A stretch of DNA of 30,809 bases from a virus, in the IMG/VR virus record IMGVR_UViG_3300033146_002028, positions 1-30,809 of that record; one strand, given 5' to 3'. Below, piece by piece: positions 3,410-20,251 of the stretch. Both the position numbers and the translations under genes were made by a program. The notes beneath the pieces are model-generated. The model was not told the origin of the DNA. It saw nothing but the letters and a program-made list of their open reading frames with translations, and did not search any database. Within the stretch, counting starts at the first letter, position 1, and each line of letters opens with the position of its first letter.

Positions 3410-5083
3410 ATGGAAATAGGCGATAGAAGAGAATTAATTGATGGTTTATCAGATGATGATCTACTTAACATTGCAAGTATGATTACACCTTGGAGTACCG
3501 GCCCAAGAATCAATGATACTAAGGTAGCAGATGAAGATGGGTTTACTTTATCTGGTATTGGCGTGAATGGGGATTATACAGGATATGCCGCTGCACAAAA
3601 TGCCTGTTGGGAGAAGTTTTCTACCAACCCACAAATTTCCTCTCATGTGAGGGATTTTATGGGGGATTTGACTGGTGCAGGGTTTAGTTGGGGCAGTGAA
3701 AATAATGCTGTTGATGCCGTATTAAAAGAAATTTCAGATGATTTGAGAAACGAACTGTTGTTAAAAATCTCTAAATATGTGGCACGGTCGGAAGTAGAGG
3801 GTGAATTGTTTTTGTGTTTGTCTTTGCACAAGGATTCTTTTGTGGAAGTTGATTTTATGGAACCCACAGATTTAATTGGTGGGGTAAATAATAGTGGTAT
3901 TTACTTTCATCCCCGTAAAAAAACAATGCCTATGTTTTATGAGTTTGCAATTAAAACAGAAATCCCAAAGAAGAAAAATAAAACGAAGAAAAACGCAGGT
4001 GGAAAGATAGTTGGGGGCGTGACAAGTGATATTGCTTCAACTATTTTAATTCCTTCTATTTATGTAGGGTATTATCCTGATTTAGGGAGGGAGGCTATTG
4101 CTTATTATTCTCTTTCTACTGAAAAATTAAAGGGGTCTAAAAGCAACATTGGGTATTCAAAGACTGGGAATTGGCACAGGTTTATTGTATCTTGGGATCG
4201 GGGGTTTCTTACACAACGTAATGTTTCTCACATAAACACCACATTATCTTGGGTTAATTTTTATGAGGATTTGAAGAAATGGGAAATTGATCATAAAAAA
4301 TCTGCAGGTTCCTATTTATGGGTAGTTAAAATGGAAGATGCCAGAACATTTCGTTCTTGGCTGAAGATGACAGATGAAGAAAAAGAACAAACTGGATTAA
4401 CTGCAAAGAAAACACCAGGTGGCACTCTTATTTGCCCGCCTGGTGTGGAAATAGAGTGCAAGAACCCTAAGCTACCCACTATTTCAGAACAAGATACTGA
4501 TATTATGCACATGATAAGCTCTGGTTTAAATCGTCCAGAGGATATGATTACTGGACAAACTAAAGGAGATACTTTTTCAGGTGTAAAAGCGAGTCGTGGG
4601 CCGCAATCAGATAGGGTTTTAGACAATATGCACTATTTTGAACAGTTCTTGCGATTGGTATTGTGGCGTTCTATTTTCTTTTTAAAAAGCACTAAATCTA
4701 CATTTAAGATTAAGTATAAAGTGAAAGAGGTGGTACAGTTCAAGAATCAAAAGCCCATTGAGCAGACTGTGGTAAAAGAAGCGCACGAGCTTATTGATTT
4801 TGATTTTCCCACCCCTGAAATTGGTGATTTAGAGGGGAAAGCAAAAGCCTATCTTGGAAGTAAGCATTTATCCGTGGTGGAGAGTTTGGGCATTCCCCGT
4901 GCTGAAGTTGCAAAGCGGTTGGGTTTTAGAAATTATGGGAAGAAACGGAAACTTTTTGAAACAGAAAATAAAATATTTCCTGATCTGCCTTTAACTGGTG
5001 AATTAGAATCTGCACAAGAGGGTGCCGGAGAATCAAGGCATGTTCACCCCGGCACACCACAGGCCCCATCTCAAGCAAAATAA
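3410..5083 (+). CDS. Portal protein
   Basis: This 557-residue protein should form the dodecameric ring at the capsid vertex through which DNA is packaged and where the tail attaches. Evidence is its size, its place between the large terminase and the capsid protease, and typical portal features: a central segment with ISEQDTDIMHMISSGLNRPED and GDTFSGVKASRG, and a C-terminal part AKAYLGSKHLSVVESLGIPR. ATG 3410 is preferred because AAGGAG lies 9 nt before it; TTG at 3404 is too close to that site. No separate small gpW-like gene lies between terL and portal, unlike lambda. Confidence 0.8.
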   Translation: MEIGDRRELIDGLSDDDLLNIASMITPWSTGPRINDTKVADEDGFTLSGIGVNGDYTGYAAAQNACWEKFSTNPQISSHVRDFMGDLTGAGFSWGSENNAVDAVLKEISDDLRNELLLKISKYVARSEVEGELFLCLSLHKDSFVEVDFMEPTDLIGGVNNSGIYFHPRKKTMPMFYEFAIKTEIPKKKNKTKKNAGGKIVGGVTSDIASTILIPSIYVGYYPDLGREAIAYYSLSTEKLKGSKSNIGYSKTGNWHRFIVSWDRGFLTQRNVSHINTTLSWVNFYEDLKKWEIDHKKSAGSYLWVVKMEDARTFRSWLKMTDEEKEQTGLTAKKTPGGTLICPPGVEIECKNPKLPTISEQDTDIMHMISSGLNRPEDMITGQTKGDTFSGVKASRGPQSDRVLDNMHYFEQFLRLVLWRSIFFLKSTKSTFKIKYKVKEVVQFKNQKPIEQTVVKEAHELIDFDFPTPEIGDLEGKAKAYLGSKHLSVVESLGIPRAEVAKRLGFRNYGKKRKLFETENKIFPDLPLTGELESAQEGAGESRHVHPGTPQAPSQAK

Positions 5084-5191: not shown

Positions 5192-6582
5192 AAGACTTTT
5201 ACACATTGCTAACGGCCTCCTCTTGGTTGATGGAGGATGGGGCATTACAAGTCCTGGCTAACGCATATCCTGATACTAAGGCGGTTTCATTTTATTCAGA
5301 TGAGGAAGAGAGTGATTTGAATAAAATGGTTATTAAGGGGAATACTGCAATTATTCCTATTATGGGGCCGTTATTTGCACAAGATAATTTTATTACAAAA
5401 GTGTTGGGCGTTGGCAAAACGTATACTTCTATTACTAAGGAGTTGCGGGATGCAGCGGCGAATTCTGATGTAGAAAATATTGTCCTGTCTGTGAATACCC
5501 CAGGTGGACAAACAGTCGGAGTCAACGCAACTGCTGGTGTTATAAAAGAAGTTGCGAAGAATAAACCGGTAAAAGCTTTTGTTCATGGAAATGGAGCTTC
5601 GGCGGGATATTGGCTCATCTCTGCTGCTGATGAAATTTACATGGACGCTACTGCTGGTGTAGGAAGTATTGGGGTAAAGGCTATTGTCCCTAAGCCCGTA
5701 GATGACGATTGGGAAATGGAAATTGTCAACTCCGATAGTCCGAACAAAGCTCCTGATGTTTCTACCAAGGAGGGGCAAGAGGTAATCAGAACGATGTTAG
5801 ACGATTTAGCTGAGGTATTTATTGCGGCAGTAGCTGAGGGTCGCAATGTATCGGAAAAAACAGTACTAAATGACTTTGGTAAAGGAGGAATCCTTATTGG
5901 TCAAAAAGCTGTAGATGCAGGTATGGCTGATGGTTTAGCAACTTTTGAAGAGGTTTTGGAATTAATTAACAATAACACAAGTAATGCAAACGGAGGCTGT
6001 ATGGATTTAAACACGCTGAAATCAGAACACAAAGATGTGTTCGATGCAGTTGTGGCAGAGGTTACTGCTTCTATGAGTGAGAAAGTCACCACTCTGGAAG
6101 CAGATATTGCTGCTAAAGCTGAAGAAATTGCTACTTTGAAGTCTGATACTGGTAATAAGGGTGCTGTCATTGACACACTAAAAGCCAGTAATGAGGCTTT
6201 GGAAGAGCGGACAAAGGCATTGGAACGGGAAACTGCCATCAGGGCGCAGAAAGAAATGCAGGTACTGGCTTCTGCTACAATAGATGCTGAACTTGCTAAA
6301 TCTGATATTCCCAAGCAACTGCATAGCAAGGTTGCGGTCCAGATTGATTTCAATAAATTTGTCAGTGAGGACAAGGGGCTGGATACAGAAGCATTTGTAA
6401 CAGCAATTAAAGCAGAAATTAAAGAGTGGGAGGGGTCTTTGGGTGCGGCTACCACTACTGTTGCGGGCGTTGGGAATTTTGCCCGCACTACTTCTGTTGA
6501 ATCGTCTGAAATTTCTGTCGAAGCTGGGAGTGCTTTATCTCGTATGTCCAAGCTTCTTGGCGTTGAAAAAGACGAAAATTAA
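5188..6582 (+). CDS. S49-family capsid maturation protease with C-terminal scaffold
   Basis: This 464-residue protein resembles lambda gpC, a SppA-like Ser-Lys protease that digests scaffold and prohead proteins. Residues about 48-250 form the S49 domain: NIVLSVNTPGG (97-107), GNGASAGYW with likely nucleophile Ser138, GVGSIGV (157-163), and Lys187 in NSDSPNKAPD, about 50 residues downstream as in SppA-type enzymes. Residues from about 272 are Ala/Glu/Lys-rich and coiled-coil-like (EKVTTLEADIAAKAEEI), as expected of a scaffold. A second in-frame start at 6001 probably gives the scaffold alone. A promoter precedes the gene; the decoration and capsid genes follow. Confidence 0.85.
   Translation: MKDFYTLLTASSWLMEDGALQVLANAYPDTKAVSFYSDEEESDLNKMVIKGNTAIIPIMGPLFAQDNFITKVLGVGKTYTSITKELRDAAANSDVENIVLSVNTPGGQTVGVNATAGVIKEVAKNKPVKAFVHGNGASAGYWLISAADEIYMDATAGVGSIGVKAIVPKPVDDDWEMEIVNSDSPNKAPDVSTKEGQEVIRTMLDDLAEVFIAAVAEGRNVSEKTVLNDFGKGGILIGQKAVDAGMADGLATFEEVLELINNNTSNANGGCMDLNTLKSEHKDVFDAVVAEVTASMSEKVTTLEADIAAKAEEIATLKSDTGNKGAVIDTLKASNEALEERTKALERETAIRAQKEMQVLASATIDAELAKSDIPKQLHSKVAVQIDFNKFVSEDKGLDTEAFVTAIKAEIKEWEGSLGAATTTVAGVGNFARTTSVESSEISVEAGSALSRMSKLLGVEKDEN
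6001..6582 (+). CDS. Nested scaffold protein (Nu3-like), internal start in the protease gene
   Basis: ATG at 6001, in frame with the protease, follows a strong GGAGG at 5992-5996 with 4 nt spacing and marks the exact change from protease to helical sequence. The product would be 193 residues, starting MDLNTLKSEHKDVF. In lambda the scaffold Nu3 is made the same way from the 3' part of gene C. The scaffold would direct assembly of the major capsid protein into proheads and then be degraded. The ribosome site and domain boundary are seen in the sequence; separate expression is inferred. Confidence 0.7.
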   Translation: MDLNTLKSEHKDVFDAVVAEVTASMSEKVTTLEADIAAKAEEIATLKSDTGNKGAVIDTLKASNEALEERTKALERETAIRAQKEMQVLASATIDAELAKSDIPKQLHSKVAVQIDFNKFVSEDKGLDTEAFVTAIKAEIKEWEGSLGAATTTVAGVGNFARTTSVESSEISVEAGSALSRMSKLLGVEKDEN

Positions 6583-12111: not shown

Positions 12112-13020
12112 ATGGCGAGAACTGGACCGTTAACAAGAAATACCAGTGCTGTTGCTTTGGGGTTGGCACAGATTCGGATTGGTAATTCAGCAGATCATAT
12201 TGCCAATGCCGCTGCTGCTTTGGCTGCAAGTGACTCTATTGGTGCTTTAGGGCAGACTGCATTTTCTGCTTCTATTGAGTTGTGGAAAATGCTATCCGGT
12301 TTCCCACAGTTAGAGGATTTGACTATCCCTACTTCGGAAACAAGTTCGATGGAGTGTACGTTTAAAGAATTGACTGCATACAACATGGCTTTGGCACGGG
12401 GACTTGACCCCAATGGCGCACATTCTGCCACGATTGATGAGGTGTCAATCGCTTCTTCTTTGGGAACCACCACGGGAACCCTGGCTGTGACAGATACAGA
12501 TGGGCCTGTAACTGATACTTTCAGAGTGTTTTTTACTGGCAGCTCTGCTGGTTCTATTTATGGAGATGCCACAGGTCAGGTTACCGATTTTGCAAGTCTG
12601 TCTTCTATAATTGCTCCTGAAAATCCCACTTCCTCCAACTCCCCTGAAAGTCCGTTTTTCAGTATTCCTGCAAACTTCTTTTCGGGAACTTGGGCAAGTG
12701 GTGATGTTTATGTATTTCAGACCACAGCATACGATGATGGAACTGCATTTGGCATCCATAGTGGTGAAATCCTACTTGGTGCTATTAAGGCTCCTGAGTT
12801 TGTTCGTATGGAGGCTGTATACACCTTTCCAAACGCAGAGAACACCATGACTATCATCTATCCTCGGTGTAATGTAACTTCTAATATGGAAGTTGATTTG
12901 CAGGTAGAGGATGCGGCAGCCCCTGGCATTACGTTTGAAGCTAAACGTGCCGATCAAGATGTATCTGGTGGTAACTCCGTATGGAATGCTGCTCCTTTGG
13001 GGAAAATTGTATTTGGATAA
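12112..13020 (+). CDS. Major tail tube protein (gpV position)
   Basis: A 302-residue protein that should polymerise as hexameric rings into the tail tube. It follows a strong AAGGAG and precedes the tail chaperone genes and the tape measure, as in siphophages. The sequence is rich in Ala, Ser, Thr and beta-type segments, with a C-terminal stretch MEVDLQVEDAAAPGITFEAK and a final APLGKIVFG, usual for tube proteins. A Ser/Thr-rich middle (about 115-210) may be a surface insertion. Position and composition carry the call. Confidence 0.75.
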   Translation: MARTGPLTRNTSAVALGLAQIRIGNSADHIANAAAALAASDSIGALGQTAFSASIELWKMLSGFPQLEDLTIPTSETSSMECTFKELTAYNMALARGLDPNGAHSATIDEVSIASSLGTTTGTLAVTDTDGPVTDTFRVFFTGSSAGSIYGDATGQVTDFASLSSIIAPENPTSSNSPESPFFSIPANFFSGTWASGDVYVFQTTAYDDGTAFGIHSGEILLGAIKAPEFVRMEAVYTFPNAENTMTIIYPRCNVTSNMEVDLQVEDAAAPGITFEAKRADQDVSGGNSVWNAAPLGKIVFG

Positions 13021-13130
13021 TTAACAGCACAAAAAAAATAATTTGGTCGGCCTGTGTCTTATCGCAACCTCCCCCATTGCTCCGCATGGGTCGGCCATTT
13101 TTTAATCCTACTAAGGAAAGGAATTTTAAA
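13021..13130. other. Gap with 8-bp direct repeat and weak hairpin
   Basis: This 110-nt gap between the tail tube and chaperone genes has GGTCGGCC twice (13045-13052, 13089-13096), a CCCAT/ATGGG stem (13073-13077, 13086-13090) and a T6 run from 13098. The T-run starts 7 nt after the stem, so a terminator is doubtful; mild attenuation after an abundant product is possible. Confidence 0.3.
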
Positions 13131-13586
13131 ATGAATGAAAAACTAAAAATGAATCCGAAAATTCGGAAAGTAGAAGTTGGTGTTAGAACTCTTCAAACTG
13201 TCAAAATCTACCCCCTGTCTTTTCGTGACCAAGAGGAACTTACCACAATTATTTTTGATGTATTAGCGGAAATTTTTAAAGAGGAAGAAGCCGTTTCTTC
13301 TGAGAGTCTTGAACAAGCCGATACCCCTGTTTCAAATATGGAATTGATTAAAAGAGTCCTCAAAGCGATTACAGAGAACATGGCAACGATTTTGGAATAC
13401 GTGACTGATCCAGATATTAAAATTGATGGAAAAGATATTATTGGCGTTCTTTCTAATGATCAGATGTTTGAAATTGCAGATATTATTTTTGAAGTGAATT
13501 ATGCAGATTTCTTAAAAAACTTCAAAGCCCTCGCCACGAAGGCGGGGGAGATTTGGAAACCGAAAGTATCAGCACAGAAAGAATAA
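13131..13586 (+). CDS. Tail assembly chaperone, short form (gpG-like)
   Basis: A 151-residue protein that should bind the tape measure and tube subunits during tail assembly and not remain in the virion. ATG 13131 follows AAGGAAAGG; the open frame reaches back to 12981 but that part overlaps the tail tube gene and lacks a start signal. The N-terminus (IRKVEVGVRTLQTVKIYPLSFRD in part) and helical rest resemble chaperones found just before the tape measure gene. Near the 3' end lies a -1 frameshift signal at 13514-13548. Confidence 0.75.
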   Translation: MNEKLKMNPKIRKVEVGVRTLQTVKIYPLSFRDQEELTTIIFDVLAEIFKEEEAVSSESLEQADTPVSNMELIKRVLKAITENMATILEYVTDPDIKIDGKDIIGVLSNDQMFEIADIIFEVNYADFLKNFKALATKAGEIWKPKVSAQKE

Positions 13587-13981
13587 TTGCGGAACTTTGT
13601 AGAGGGTTTCCTGGTTACAGGATAGAGCATTTTTATCACAAAAGTTTTCGTGAGGGTGGTGTCACCTATGGACAAATAGGTGAGCTATATAAACAACTCT
13701 TGGAAATAAAATGGGATGAATTGCGACAACAGGCTGCTTTGCAAGGGGTTGATTTAGATAAAGAAGTAGAAAAAGGAGGTACTGGTTCAGATGTTCCCGC
13801 ACCAAAAGGACAACCAGTATCTCCTTCTATTGGTTTATTTAAAGACCCCAAAGAATATGATGGTATGAGTGCTGAAGAACGGGAAACAGAAACAAAAAAG
13901 ATGATGGCCACGTATAGGCAATGGGCTGGTGATTTGGGAGCCAAAGATAGTAATGGAAATAAAAGCAGCAGTTGGGTATAA
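13131..13981 (+). CDS. Tail assembly chaperone, frameshifted long form (gpGT-like)
   Basis: The ribosome would read codons 1-130 in the first frame, slip back one base on A AAA AAC (13514-13520) and continue from 13520 for 153 codons to the stop at 13979-13981, giving about 283 residues. The second frame has no ATG near its start; the first candidate is TTG 13553, only 2 nt from a GGGGGAG run. Its sequence (RGFPGYRIEHFYHKSF, YGQIGELYKQLLEIKWDEL) fits the T-type domain that contacts the tube protein in lambda. The coordinates span both frames; the product is not one uninterrupted frame. Confidence 0.8.
13514..13548 (+). promoter_or_regulatory. Programmed -1 frameshift site
   Basis: The slippery heptamer A AAA AAC (13514-13520) is in the right phase of the upstream frame (TTA AAA AAC). 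After a 7-nt spacer, CCCTCGCC (13528-13535) pairs with GGCGGGGG (13541-13548) over 8 bp with one G-U pair and a 5-nt loop. The shift is into the frame that encodes the rest of the chaperone. Confidence 0.85.
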
Positions 13982-13993
13982 GGAGTTTCTATT

Positions 13994-16900
13994 ATGTCAA
14001 CAGAAATACAATTAAAATTAGCGGCGGTATCAGTCCAAAGCTTTAAAAACAGCACTACTGCAATCCAAGAGAATTTAAAGCAAATACGCCTTTGGATAGC
14101 TGCAGCACAAAAAGCAGGGAAAGCCACATTAGTAAGTGACCTGCAAAAAATGGCCAGTGCGCTTGAAATTACCAAAAACAAAACTGCTGATTTAACAAAA
14201 GAAATTGGCGGTTTAGGAAAAGCCACTGTAGAGATAAACAAAACAGAACATCTTTTACAGGAAGCATTAGGAAAAACAAAATCAGAGTACGCTGCTGTAA
14301 ATGAAAAAGCAGCAATATTTTATGGGCAGCTTAAAAAAGGAACAATAGACCAAGAAACTGCTAAAAAAGCTGTTTCACAATTTCAAACGGCAATGCAGAA
14401 TCTCAATGCCGATATAATTGCCGCAACTAAAGGCGGTTCTGCACTAAATAAAAATATTAAATATGAAACAATCCTTGAATTACAAAGGGCTGGTGCGTTA
14501 AAAGTCACCAATTCAGCAATAACTAATATGAACGAAATGGCCCAAAAACGAATGGGCCTTTCTAAAAAACAGATTGAGGCTGTTCGTCAGCAACGTAGTG
14601 AGTATTCTCTTTATGAGAAGGCTTTAAATACAGCAACAATAAAAACAGAAGCTTTTGGGCAAGGTGTTATTGCATTAGGTAAAAAATTTGGAACCACAGA
14701 CAAAGCATTCCTAACTGCCGATAAAAGCATTAGGCAAGTTGAGGCTTCCCTTGAGGGGTTGCGAGCAAAACAATTAGCATCTGGTAAAAATGTTGGGTGG
14801 ATTCAGAACCTTGATAGATACAAACTTACTTTGGCTGCACTTAATGGTACAATCAAAATAACTAAAAACGGTATTGAGGCATTAACAGATAAAGGGCTTC
14901 GGGCATTAGGGCAAAAATCTGTAGGGGCCGCCAGAGAGAACGGTGTGTTGGTGGCTTCATTTGATAAACTTAGCACACGTACTGCTGCTTTAAAGCAGAA
15001 ATACCCTGAATTAATAAATGCACAAAATAAATTTGGTAGAAATTCTGAAAAGATTATTGATTTATTTTCCCGAACTAAAATTTCTTATGAACAAGCTGGG
15101 AATGCCTTAAAAAAACAGAAACAGGGGTTTGCTGAATATAATAAAAAATCTGAATCATTAAAGACTGCAGAAAATGCTGCATTTAAATTGCAACAACAAT
15201 TTCAGGCTTTAAGAAATGGGGAACATGCGTATACAACCAGCACTCGTTGGTTGATTAAAGAAGTTGCTAACCAGAATGCCTCATTCACAGATGCACAGGC
15301 CGTATTGCGAACACATTTAGTTTTGTTGCGGGAAGAACAAAAGGCACAGAGGCAAAGTGCCAAAGAAAAAGAAAATACCAGAAAAGGTGTATTACAGCTT
15401 CGTACAGCATACCAAGAATTACTTAAAGATAAAGGAAGTCTTAGAGACGCAGTAAATGAAGAAATTAGAAAATTTGCATTAGAGGGCAAATCTATTGATA
15501 AAGTTAAACGCAAACTGACTTTATTACAAAACGTACAAAAGCAAGAACGGGTTGAACTTGAAGCACAAAAGGCCTCCATTCAAGCACAAATTGATTCTAT
15601 ATATAAACTTAAAAATAAATACACAATATTAATAAATACAGAGAATAAATATAAATCCACTGCTGAGGCACTTATTCTATTATTAGAAAAAGAAGCCGGG
15701 GCACAAAAGGCAGTTGAAATTTCTTTAGCTCGATTAGATGCCCGAAGAAAATCATCTGATACGGAAGAAAAAAAATCTGCAGAAAAAAAGAAAAATATCA
15801 GTGCTGCTATTTTGCGGTTAAATAATGATTACGCTCTTTTATTAAAAACAGAAAACAAATATACACAAAAAACAAAAGCGTTGATTAATGCCGTAAAAGA
15901 ACAAGGGGCGAGCATCCAGCGAGTTGAGCCTATTTTACGAAGATGGAAAAATGAGGTAAAAAATTCTAATAGAGAAGTTACAGGATTTAGGGGGGCTTTA
16001 AATGCCCTTACTCGTAGTTTTAAAACGTATTCAAGGTACATGCTTGCTTCTGGGCTACTTAGAAAAACAGTAGATACTTTTAGACAAGCAAAAGAGGGAG
16101 TTATTGCGTATGACCAGGTTTTGCATGATTTAACTGCTATTTTAAATGCAACAACCACAGAAGTTTCCTTGATGGGAAAAGCACTCATTTCAACTACTAT
16201 GAGAACAAAATTCTCCATTGAAGAAACTGGTACCGCAATGCGGTTGATGGGCCAGTCTGGTTTTACTGCTATGGAAGCCGTACAAGGTATTGATGACGTG
16301 GCTAACTTGGCAACTGGAACATTAGAGGGATTAGATAGTACGGTTAAATTGATTACTGCCACAATTAGGGTGTTTCAGTTGGATATGGATGAAACCAGCA
16401 AAGTCGTAGATATATTTGCAAATGCTGTCAATAATTCACGTTTGACGATTGACCGTATCAATACATCTATGAACTATATTGGCCCGATTGCTAAAGCGGC
16501 GAAACTTTCTTTAAAGGATACGTCAGCAGCATTGATGTTGCTTGCCAATGCGGGTGTCAGGGCTTCCACATCAGCAACAGGCTTGCGCCGCATGATTGGT
16601 ATGTTAGTCAACCCTACAAAAGCATTTAAGGCCGCCATAATTGGAGCAGGGTACACATTAGATGAATTTAATCCAGAACTTGTTTCCTTTACAAGTATTA
16701 TAGAAAAATTACCTCATGTAGTTGATGGGGCGGGCGATGCCATTGAAATGTTTGGGCTTCGTGGTTCTGCTGTGGTGTCTGCAATCGCAGAAATGGGTTC
16801 AGATGAGTTTACCCGGCTATATTCCACACTTGATGAAACAGGCACAGCATCCAGAATGGCGGCGGAACAGATGAAGGGAATGGGAATCATCATTAAAAAT

Positions 16901-19900
16901 ATTGCTGATAGATTTCAAGTATTGGCAAAAGTAGTAGGAGAGGGCAGTGGTATTACAGCATTGATGCGGGGAGTATTACAAGTATTTAAGCAATTTTTAG
17001 GTGTTTTGGTATATTTAGCAGGAACGCCTATGGGCAAATTTGTTTTAATGATGTCTGCAGTATCAGCGGGGATTACTGCCATTACAGTGGGATTGATGGC
17101 TTGGAAAGCCCTCGGCATGGGTTCGGTGATTGCTAAAATAACAGCCGCCCTTACTTTTCAGAATGTTACAATGATAAGCACAGTCAGCATCATGGCAGCA
17201 TTAGAAACCACAATGCTTGGTTTAACAACAGCAGCAGCGGCAACGGCAGGGGCATTTATGAATTTATCACTGGCACTTATTGGGTTACTGAGCAACCCAA
17301 TAATTTTAGGATTAGCTGCAGTAGCAGCAGGGGTGTGGTATATTCATCGTGCAGCAACTTCTACAAAAAAGGAAATGAACGAGTTAGCAGAGAATACAAA
17401 AATATTTGTGACTGAAATTTCAAATGCTTCTGATAAAATAAATAGTCATAATAAAACCGTAAAAGAGTATGGTAAATATTCTGATAATGCAAAAAAATCT
17501 GCATTAGGCTTACGAGAAGCCATCCTTAAATTAAGAGATGAAGAAGTTTTATCTGAAAAAGAAGCCCAAAGTTACATAACAATGATTGATAAAAAGACTG
17601 GGGCATTTATCAATCAAGAAGAAACATTAGATAGATTAAGCAAAAAACTTGATGAAGTTTATAATAAGCGGGTACGAAAAGTAGTTAATGAGATACAAAA
17701 GATTAGTTGGGTAAATTCAATTCGTGGCATGCAATCGTATAGTAATGCAGCACAAATACTAATCGCACAAATACAAAATTGGCAAGAAAGTGACTTAGCC
17801 ACTGAAAAACGATTAGTTTTTTGGTCTGAAAAAGGAGTAGAAAAATACAATAAACGTAAACATGCTGTACAAAAGTACCACGAACAAATGCGTAATTTGC
17901 CGCCCATATTACAAGAGTCTGCTGCCGCCTATTTGGAATTAGAGTTAGCCGCAAATTCTTCATCTGATACACAGGGGTTATATAGCAAAAAATTTGAGAT
18001 ATTAAAAGATTTAACTAAACGGCAGACACAGTCTATTTTATCAACAGTAAAAGTGTATAAATTAACAGGGGAACAAATACATAAATTAGTAGAAGAAAGA
18101 TATGGAACGGAAAATGAATTAGCTAAAGCAGCCATTACTATACAAGTGGCACGAGCAGCAGAATCTGCCAAAAAGCAACGCACTATCTATTCGGATTTAA
18201 TGGAGTCCTTTTCTGAAGACCAGCGCAAATTTGCAAAAGGGGAATCTTCTTTTGATGTATTGTTATCACAATACAATGAAGTGGTAAAAAAGATTGAAGA
18301 AAAACACAAAGATTTGATTGATACTTTATTATCTATAAAACCTTCAAAAATTAAAGGGTACAAAAAACAAATAGATACGATAGCAGGTTTTAGTGATGGA
18401 TTGTGGTTCCAAGATGCGGGGATTGGGGAGGTGCTGCAAAAGGAAGAAAATGATACTCTTCTTGCTCCGATAAGTGAAGCAGTGAAATCACAAAGTGCAA
18501 AACTGGAGGATGCTTTAGAAACAGCGTCTTCCAGAGCAAAAGAGGCCTGGATACATGGATGGGCAAATGGGGCAGATGGGAAGCCCTCAATGTCGGAACA
18601 GTTAAAAGCAGAATTAGTCGATATTGATACTGGTGCTGCGAAGGCGGTGCGTGATTTAACGAAAAAATTTGATACAGGAAAAGGGAACTCTGTAGTACAA
18701 GGATATAAAATATCTTCTATTTTTGATATAGAAAAAATAGAAATTGAAATAGCGGCTGCTGAACAAAAGGTAGCCGCATTTAGTAAAATTATAAAAGAGG
18801 CCGGTTCACCTGGGATAGACATCACTTCTGAAAATAATAAGGAGATAAGAAAACTTGTAAAACAAAAAGTAGAACAAGAACAAAAAATATTAGATAATAG
18901 AGTTTCTTTAATAAAATTAGGGCTTGCAAAAGTTGAAGAGCTGTACGTGGCTGACGCAGACAAGCACCAGCGTATGGTAGAAAAACAAATACGAACACAG
19001 GGTGGAACACAAAAACAGCGAATACTGTTACAAATACAAGCTGAAGAAGAGAACCGTAAAATACTCCAAAATTCTATAAACACAGCAAACAAACTTGAAG
19101 CAGACCATACAAAATTTATCCGTTCTCAAAATGATAAAATTCAGGAATCTAATAAGAAAACACAAAATTTAAAAATAACTTTAGTAGAAAAGGCACTTGC
19201 AAAAGAAGAGGCTGCACTAAAAACAACAAAATCCTTGGTAGATGCAATAAATAAAGAATTAGATTATGAAAATAGATATTCAGAGGGTGCTTCGGCAGCA
19301 ATGCAGCGTAGGTTTGATGCAGAAGAATCCTCTCGAACTGCACATATTAAAGCACTTAATGATGCAAATACGGAATGGAGAAAATTAATAGCAGAAGAAA
19401 ATAAAAAAGGTGCAGATCGTGATGTTTCTTATATTGGGGAACTAACTAAAAAAATTAAATTGTCTCAAAAGGAGATCAACACACTTATAATTTTGCTTAG
19501 GGAATTTAAAGCAGAAGAAGCAGAGAAAATTAAAAATCAGGGAATAATAGATGGAAGCGATGACATTAAACAAGTAGTACTTGGCATAGATACGGCAATC
19601 CATAGTTTTAAATCTATGGGAGAAATAATTACTGAAGGGTGGAAAAGAACCATCAATACAATGAGTTCTGCCACATCTCAATTTTTCCAGGACATTGTTT
19701 TAAAAACAAAACACACAGAAGACGCATTTAAGAGTTTAGCAAAGAGTGTGGGACAGTCTATGCTGCAAATGGGAACTGACATGGCCGCCCAACAAGCAAT
19801 GAATTGGCTGTGGGGAGCAGATTCAGGAAATACCGGAGACAACACAGGTGCAATTAAAGGGGCATGGGGGTTTGTAAAAGACCTATTTGTAAATAAACAA

Positions 19901-20251
19901 CACACAGGTGGGCTGGTTGGGGCATCTGGAGGAATGCAAACACCCGTTTCCCCCTTTGCTTTTGTCAACGCCCCCCGTTTGCATAATGGATTACGAGCAG
20001 ATGAATTTCCCGCTATTTTGCAAAAGGGGGAAGAGGTTATATCCAAAAGAGATGTGCAAAATAGAAAAGACAAAGGAGTGAGTGATATACATATTTCTTT
20101 GATTAATGAAAGTGGTGAAAAATTAGTTGCTACCAAAAAAGAACCTGTATTTGATAAGGATAAAATGATATTAAATGTAGTGTTAAGTGCGGTGGGTAAT
20201 AACAAATCAGGATTTGGAAAAAATATGTCAAATGCTTTATCGAGGTATTAA
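13994..20251 (+). CDS. Tail tape measure protein
   Basis: A 2085-residue protein that sets tail length and is ejected into the host at infection. Residues 1-680 are helical and coiled-coil-like with diverged ~65-70-residue repeats. About 683-870 is the TP901-type core (LSLKDTSAALMLLANAGVRA, TGLRRMIGML). Hydrophobic segments at about 1013-1037 and 1086-1115 suit membrane insertion. Residues 1130-1950 are again helical and Lys/Glu-rich. The C-terminus has the GGLVG...RLHNGLRADEFPAILQKGEE signature common to lambda-type tape measures. TAAGGAG precedes the ATG. At roughly 1.5 angstrom per residue the tail would be near 300 nm. Confidence 0.92.
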   Translation: MSTEIQLKLAAVSVQSFKNSTTAIQENLKQIRLWIAAAQKAGKATLVSDLQKMASALEITKNKTADLTKEIGGLGKATVEINKTEHLLQEALGKTKSEYAAVNEKAAIFYGQLKKGTIDQETAKKAVSQFQTAMQNLNADIIAATKGGSALNKNIKYETILELQRAGALKVTNSAITNMNEMAQKRMGLSKKQIEAVRQQRSEYSLYEKALNTATIKTEAFGQGVIALGKKFGTTDKAFLTADKSIRQVEASLEGLRAKQLASGKNVGWIQNLDRYKLTLAALNGTIKITKNGIEALTDKGLRALGQKSVGAARENGVLVASFDKLSTRTAALKQKYPELINAQNKFGRNSEKIIDLFSRTKISYEQAGNALKKQKQGFAEYNKKSESLKTAENAAFKLQQQFQALRNGEHAYTTSTRWLIKEVANQNASFTDAQAVLRTHLVLLREEQKAQRQSAKEKENTRKGVLQLRTAYQELLKDKGSLRDAVNEEIRKFALEGKSIDKVKRKLTLLQNVQKQERVELEAQKASIQAQIDSIYKLKNKYTILINTENKYKSTAEALILLLEKEAGAQKAVEISLARLDARRKSSDTEEKKSAEKKKNISAAILRLNNDYALLLKTENKYTQKTKALINAVKEQGASIQRVEPILRRWKNEVKNSNREVTGFRGALNALTRSFKTYSRYMLASGLLRKTVDTFRQAKEGVIAYDQVLHDLTAILNATTTEVSLMGKALISTTMRTKFSIEETGTAMRLMGQSGFTAMEAVQGIDDVANLATGTLEGLDSTVKLITATIRVFQLDMDETSKVVDIFANAVNNSRLTIDRINTSMNYIGPIAKAAKLSLKDTSAALMLLANAGVRASTSATGLRRMIGMLVNPTKAFKAAIIGAGYTLDEFNPELVSFTSIIEKLPHVVDGAGDAIEMFGLRGSAVVSAIAEMGSDEFTRLYSTLDETGTASRMAAEQMKGMGIIIKNIADRFQVLAKVVGEGSGITALMRGVLQVFKQFLGVLVYLAGTPMGKFVLMMSAVSAGITAITVGLMAWKALGMGSVIAKITAALTFQNVTMISTVSIMAALETTMLGLTTAAAATAGAFMNLSLALIGLLSNPIILGLAAVAAGVWYIHRAATSTKKEMNELAENTKIFVTEISNASDKINSHNKTVKEYGKYSDNAKKSALGLREAILKLRDEEVLSEKEAQSYITMIDKKTGAFINQEETLDRLSKKLDEVYNKRVRKVVNEIQKISWVNSIRGMQSYSNAAQILIAQIQNWQESDLATEKRLVFWSEKGVEKYNKRKHAVQKYHEQMRNLPPILQESAAAYLELELAANSSSDTQGLYSKKFEILKDLTKRQTQSILSTVKVYKLTGEQIHKLVEERYGTENELAKAAITIQVARAAESAKKQRTIYSDLMESFSEDQRKFAKGESSFDVLLSQYNEVVKKIEEKHKDLIDTLLSIKPSKIKGYKKQIDTIAGFSDGLWFQDAGIGEVLQKEENDTLLAPISEAVKSQSAKLEDALETASSRAKEAWIHGWANGADGKPSMSEQLKAELVDIDTGAAKAVRDLTKKFDTGKGNSVVQGYKISSIFDIEKIEIEIAAAEQKVAAFSKIIKEAGSPGIDITSENNKEIRKLVKQKVEQEQKILDNRVSLIKLGLAKVEELYVADADKHQRMVEKQIRTQGGTQKQRILLQIQAEEENRKILQNSINTANKLEADHTKFIRSQNDKIQESNKKTQNLKITLVEKALAKEEAALKTTKSLVDAINKELDYENRYSEGASAAMQRRFDAEESSRTAHIKALNDANTEWRKLIAEENKKGADRDVSYIGELTKKIKLSQKEINTLIILLREFKAEEAEKIKNQGIIDGSDDIKQVVLGIDTAIHSFKSMGEIITEGWKRTINTMSSATSQFFQDIVLKTKHTEDAFKSLAKSVGQSMLQMGTDMAAQQAMNWLWGADSGNTGDNTGAIKGAWGFVKDLFVNKQHTGGLVGASGGMQTPVSPFAFVNAPRLHNGLRADEFPAILQKGEEVISKRDVQNRKDKGVSDIHISLINESGEKLVATKKEPVFDKDKMILNVVLSAVGNNKSGFGKNMSNALSRY

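Follow-up and report, generated by a model that had tools for sequence, protein, structure and literature searches.

A probable -1 frameshift signal of the lambda G/GT type, with a conserved downstream stem, in the tail chaperone genes of an uncultivated phage group

The window, meaning the whole stretch of DNA that was analysed (30,809 nt), covers positions 1 to 30,809 of the IMG/VR virus record IMGVR_UViG_3300033146_002028 and derives from an uncultivated tailed phage. Two overlapping reading frames, ORF1 and ORF2, are situated between a presumed major tail protein gene and a tape measure gene, and the junction between the frames carries the elements of a putative ribosomal slip site. The features of the region are as follows:

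12112-13020, + strand: presumed major tail (tube) protein, 302 aa (from its position and its conserved association with the two frames)
13113-13122, + strand: Shine-Dalgarno-like AAGGAAAGGA of ORF1, 8 nt before the ATG at 13131 (sequence)
13131-13586, + strand: ORF1, predicted 'G'-type tail assembly chaperone, 151 aa, 0 frame (PHROG 1442 matches of relatives)
13514-13520, + strand: slippery heptamer A_AAA_AAC, in phase with ORF1 (..TTA AAA AAC..)
13520-13981, + strand: ORF2, predicted 'T'-type frame after a -1 slip, 153 aa (homologous frame in all 60 loci compared)
13521-13527, + strand: spacer TTCAAAG, 7 nt (sequence)
13528-13535, + strand: 5' arm of the presumed stimulatory stem, CCCTCGCC (position, and a similar sequence with a CCTC core in most relatives)
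13536-13540, + strand: hairpin loop ACGAA, 5 nt (folding)
13541-13548, + strand: 3' arm in its local, compact form, GGCGGGGG (folding; in most relatives the 3' arm is located about 18-50 nt further on)
13553-13555, + strand: TTG, the sole early start-like codon of the second frame and a weak alternative start
13994-20251, + strand: tail tape measure protein, 2085 aa (PHROG 1533 and others, E 1.7e-40)

Judged by its family matches, the identity of the gene directly downstream of ORF2 as the tape measure is secure. The 302-aa gene upstream of ORF1 is presumed to encode the major tail protein by position only; its product had a weak, sub-threshold Pfam match (Phage_TTP_17, E 0.075) and matched no named tail tube family significantly. 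Neither ORF1 nor ORF2 as encoded in the window matched a PHROG family, or a Pfam family above the cut-off, and both were without a match among 50,697 phage records. Among 47 aligned relatives of ORF1, 13 matched PHROG 1442 'tail assembly chaperone' (best E 3e-07), while Pfam Phage_TAC_15 was weakly matched by six, and it is through these relatives only that ORF1 appears to be related to the tail chaperones. The predicted structure of ORF1 had a pLDDT of 85.6. Fold searches with ORF1 and ORF2 returned no match below E 0.001; the named weak matches of the ORF1 model included a pre-tape measure frameshift protein G as well as several tail assembly chaperones, with the HK97 tail assembly chaperone among the weak PDB matches. 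No informative match was obtained for ORF2, fold search included.

An earlier note, made from the letters of the window, had described a complete -1 frameshift cassette at this junction, and each of its elements could be located. The heptamer A AAA AAC is in phase within ORF1, the 7-nt spacer leads into a hairpin (13528-13548) of eight pairs, one of them G-U, closed by the 5-nt loop, and no stop interrupts the -1 frame between 13493, ahead of the slip point, and 13981, where it terminates. The same note had held that the second frame has no usable start, which largely holds, as the frame has no early ATG, though the TTG at 13553 stands 2 nt past a purine-rich stretch. The 40 nt on the 3' side of the heptamer fold with -19.1 kcal/mol (z -4.3 compared to shuffles), and a stem this good at this spacing is rare among dinucleotide shuffles (P = 0.0035). 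The heptamer alone is unremarkable, since the AT-rich window holds dozens in phase (43 heptamers of this general kind per 8972 codons), and because it proves little by itself, the case rests on conservation in relatives.

Searches that used a single ORF1 or ORF2 sequence recovered hardly any relatives or none, and alignments of either frame were too divergent for a scan of the collection. Recovery was solved by using the conserved 302-aa gene upstream of ORF1 as an anchor, from which the best 80 of 95 related loci on viral contigs were taken, together with three loci from genome contigs and the loci found earlier. Collapsing identical junctions left 60 loci, and dereplication at 85% similarity left 50. 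Using profiles of ORF1 and ORF2, both frames were detected in nearly all related loci. The second frame was positioned at -1 in 59 of the 60 non-identical loci and was fused to the first in the remaining one. An in-phase slippery heptamer occurred exactly at the junction in all but one of the 59 loci with a -1 arrangement (58/59), compared to two occurrences of the same heptamers in 6608 codons within upstream ORF1, which served as the control. Amongst the 50 dereplicated loci, the most common heptamer was AAAAAAC (n = 32), followed by GGGAAAG (n = 7), AAAAAAG (n = 4), and AAAAAAA (n = 4), with GGGAAAC, GGGAAAA, and AAAAAAT each present once. A tree of 52 loci required at least four changes between A-type and G-type heptamers, and this interchange means that the slippery property, not the letters, is conserved. 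One relative with 63% G+C (L011) still has AAAAAAC. The pattern that the earlier note had set against a frameshift, a lost heptamer accompanied by a normal start for the second frame, did not appear among the relatives.

The only type of -1 locus lacking a heptamer (L071, positions 4690-4740, with identical junctions in L074, L076, and L077, four contigs altogether) has ATA AAA G situated 6 nt, the usual distance, before an intact stem, and this may be a tetramer-type or non-canonical slip site. In the locus with fused frames (L006, positions 6300-6330; also L019), 38 nt are deleted in comparison with L009, between CTT repeats. The deletion joins the chaperone frames as one and represents either a natural variant or an assembly artefact.

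Detection of the downstream stem depended on how much sequence was folded. Folding 45 nt downstream of the heptamer gave a mean z of -0.43 and no apparent general structure, whereas folding 75 nt gave a mean z of -1.87 and revealed distal 3' arms; in most loci the stem begins 6-7 nt past the heptamer and encloses a large loop. When spacers of 5-9 nt only were scanned, with the longest uninterrupted stem as the score, the spacer was 6 or 7 nt in 36 of the 50 dereplicated loci and 5-8 nt in 47. The mean stem score (23.3) exceeded both that obtained when arms were swapped between loci, the first 20 nt of one locus being joined to the downstream part of another (14.8), and that found elsewhere along the gene (about 12), and none of 10000 permutations reached the observed mean. 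Supplied with a plain alignment of 27 loci, RNAalifold recovered the stem unaided. In these loci, picked for their similar geometry, two-sided changes occurred in 10 of 12 pairs, with 35 such cells compared to 13.2 in shuffles, counts that are somewhat inflated by relatedness, and sliding the partner by one base reduced pairing from 82% to about 50%. Overall, the combined tests make a convincing comparative case for conservation of the stem.

A simple classification divided the 50 loci into 38 with an extended stem (median 10.5 bp; median loop, 24 nt), seven with a compact stem, the window included, and five with a weak stem or none (L052, L064, L095, L096, and L097). A stem with compensatory changes is present in about 45 of the 50 dereplicated loci, and the alignment of relatives that the earlier note had suggested as a check bears out the conservation of heptamer and stem alike. 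The compact hairpin seen in the window is, by this classification, a minority form of the conserved downstream stem. Across the group, the 5' arm mostly begins 5-8 nt past the heptamer, and the 3' arm is either distal (loop of about 15-50 nt or more) or local (loop of 3-5 nt). The compact forms are scattered on the tree, with L018 beside the extended L020, and L026 and L028 beside the extended L008, and because they occupy several separate places, the 3' arm has apparently changed place repeatedly, with the 5' arm remaining where it was. Complementarity between the loop and the downstream sequence, as expected of a pseudoknot, was no better than in swapped loci (13.5 compared to 12.6, sd 2.7), and no correlation was detected between stronger stems and weaker heptamers (P 0.27).

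Several known systems resemble this arrangement. With lambda G/GT it shares two overlapping frames between the major tail protein gene (here presumed) and the tape measure gene, a -1 shift (predicted here) late in the first frame at a heptamer of the form X_XXY_YYZ, and similar product sizes as read from coordinates (151 and 283 aa here compared to 140 and about 279 aa in lambda), though no sequence similarity between lambda G/GT and the window was detectable by the searches used. The lambda heptamer is G_GGA_AAG, in contrast to the A_AAA_AAC and conserved downstream stem described here, and the lambda site itself, when examined, had no comparable stem (P 0.06). Conservation of G-T frameshifting is widespread among long-tailed phages, and the heptamer A_AAA_AAC is used by HCTV-2 of haloarchaea (PMC5009743); the tail-chaperone frameshifts of the haloarchaeal siphoviruses HCTV-1, -2, and -5 differ in having archaeal hosts. 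The dnaX gene of E. coli and the IS3-family elements share with the window an A-rich heptamer and a stimulatory stem-loop or pseudoknot 5-8 nt further on (PMC4066793), stimulation being presumed for the window, but differ from a tail-chaperone site in genes and purpose.

Alternative explanations for the two frames were weighed against these results. ORF1 and ORF2 could be two separate genes, with ORF2 initiated at the TTG at 13553 or coupled to ORF1. On this reading the purine-rich 3' arm GGCGGGGGAG would serve as the Shine-Dalgarno sequence and the heptamer would be incidental. A purine-rich stretch does precede this TTG, and in three relatives that also have compact hairpins (L026, L028, and L078) a start-like codon occurs at nearly the same place behind a Shine-Dalgarno-like tetramer. 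The nearest GGAG in the window, however, is only 2 nt from the TTG, which is too close, and near the junction the second frame lacks an ATG in 45 of 50 loci and any of ATG, GTG, or TTG in 33 of 50. The spacing and the general scarcity of starts make internal initiation at 13553 unlikely, and as independent initiation leaves a heptamer and stem at fixed spacing unexplained, the reading as separate genes is given very little weight. A sequencing or assembly error, or a decayed gene, could mimic two frames in a virus record derived from a metagenome, and a fused relative (L006) exists, but among 60 non-identical loci, drawn from many samples, 59 show the same -1 arrangement, and both frames maintain conserved protein families, such that an origin of this kind is scarcely credible.

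Slippage of RNA polymerase on the A run, producing messages in either frame, would be compatible with the six consecutive A's of the window and the seven of those relatives with AAAAAAA. The runs are mostly of six, though, and in nine of the 50 dereplicated loci GGGAAAG or a similar heptamer occurs instead; as a short A run that can be replaced by GGGAAAG argues against transcriptional slippage, and a covarying RNA stem 5-8 nt downstream fits a ribosome, this explanation is considered extremely improbable. Less remote, though still improbable, is a genuine frameshift in which the heptamer alone sets the slippage and the hairpin of the window is not a stimulator. Certain tailed phages have been described as lacking known stimulators (Atkins et al. 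review, PMC5009743), five loci of the present set have weak stems only, and the absence of a comparable stem from lambda is in keeping with such a case. Set against this are the occurrence of the stem at its spacing in about 45 of the 50 loci, with covariation, and the low chance probability of the stem in the window.

The junction is thus best read as a programmed -1 ribosomal frameshift signal of the lambda G/GT type, a reading which, on the comparative sequence evidence, is very probably correct. The central claim of the earlier note, that a -1 frameshift joins two tail-chaperone frames, is strongly supported by the frame offset and heptamers of the relatives and supported by their matches to PHROG 1442, and the tape measure gene downstream. 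The sequences show how the site is built, that it is conserved, that the stem covaries in relatives, and that ORF1 is related to tail chaperones. We infer the occurrence of slippage, its efficiency, its tandem mechanism, and the roles of the chaperones, and the course of events would be as follows. Most ribosomes would read ORF1 to its stop at 13586 and produce the 151-aa chaperone (G). A minority would be paused by the hairpin at 13528-13548 with AAA in the P site and AAC in the A site, slip back one base on A_AAA_AAC (a tandem -1 slip), and continue in the -1 frame to 13981, with a predicted 283-aa G-T fusion (130 + 153 aa) as the minor form. By analogy with lambda, the tape measure protein would be coated by G, and the fusion would recruit the major tail protein through its T part. 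The junction peptide FLKKLQSPR predicted in the earlier note fits slippage in the P site only; tandem slippage after decoding of AAC would give FLK-N-LQSPR in its place.

It is plausible, as had also been proposed, that the hairpin sets a different ratio of the two products. In E. coli, which may not be the host of this phage, A_AAA_AAG shifts more readily than A_AAA_AAC (PMC5009743), and most heptamers slip more when a stimulator is present (PMC4066793), so that a conserved stem would be sensible here. A tentative extension, possible but somewhat less likely than not, is that these phages, unlike lambda, set the G:G-T ratio by a conserved, covarying stem together with the heptamer, and that with a fixed 5' arm and a mobile 3' arm the wiring changes while the structure is kept. 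Judged by the literature searched, novelty may lie in the covarying stem with its mobile 3' arm; if the extension is true, this would be among the first tail-chaperone frameshifts with a structural stimulator demonstrated by evolution.

As G-T frameshifting is already known, the site is a further case, in a phage group unmatched among the phage records searched, to which it extends textbook programmed frameshifting. The covariation shows that a downstream stem is kept in this group where lambda has no obvious one. The approximately 50 natural variants, with seven heptamers and two stem layouts, offer material with which to measure joint control by slip site and stem of the G:G-T product ratio, something on which tail assembly depends. 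For annotation practice, the two frames of this chaperone family should be joined.

Several minor features accompany the junction. In L026 (5388-5454), L028 (5387-5453), L078 (5019-5085), and the window (13541-13555), the purine-rich 3' arm is followed by an ATG, GTG, or TTG, and with a second-frame start in this position the arm could also act in ribosome binding for a T protein made on its own. A Shine-Dalgarno-like GAGG occurs 5-9 nt before the heptamer in 40-46% of loci (for example, L026, 5376-5387) compared to a baseline of 5.5%; the glutamate codon at this place is GAG in 19 cases and GAA in six, compared to 160 and 341 elsewhere in ORF1, counts that ignore kinship. This element in the relatives resembles the upstream stimulator of dnaX; the window itself lacks it. 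Within the genome collection, the tail module was found only on L098, L099 (Sulfuricurvum MAG), and L100 (Melioribacter MAG), which are possible hints of the host, the binning of short phage contigs being unreliable. Between the presumed tail tube gene and ORF1 of the window, a long GC-rich hairpin followed by six T's (13044-13103; 14 bp outer stem, -22.4 kcal/mol, z -2.8) appears terminator- or attenuator-like, and by eye L006 also has a hairpin between its tail tube gene and ORF1.
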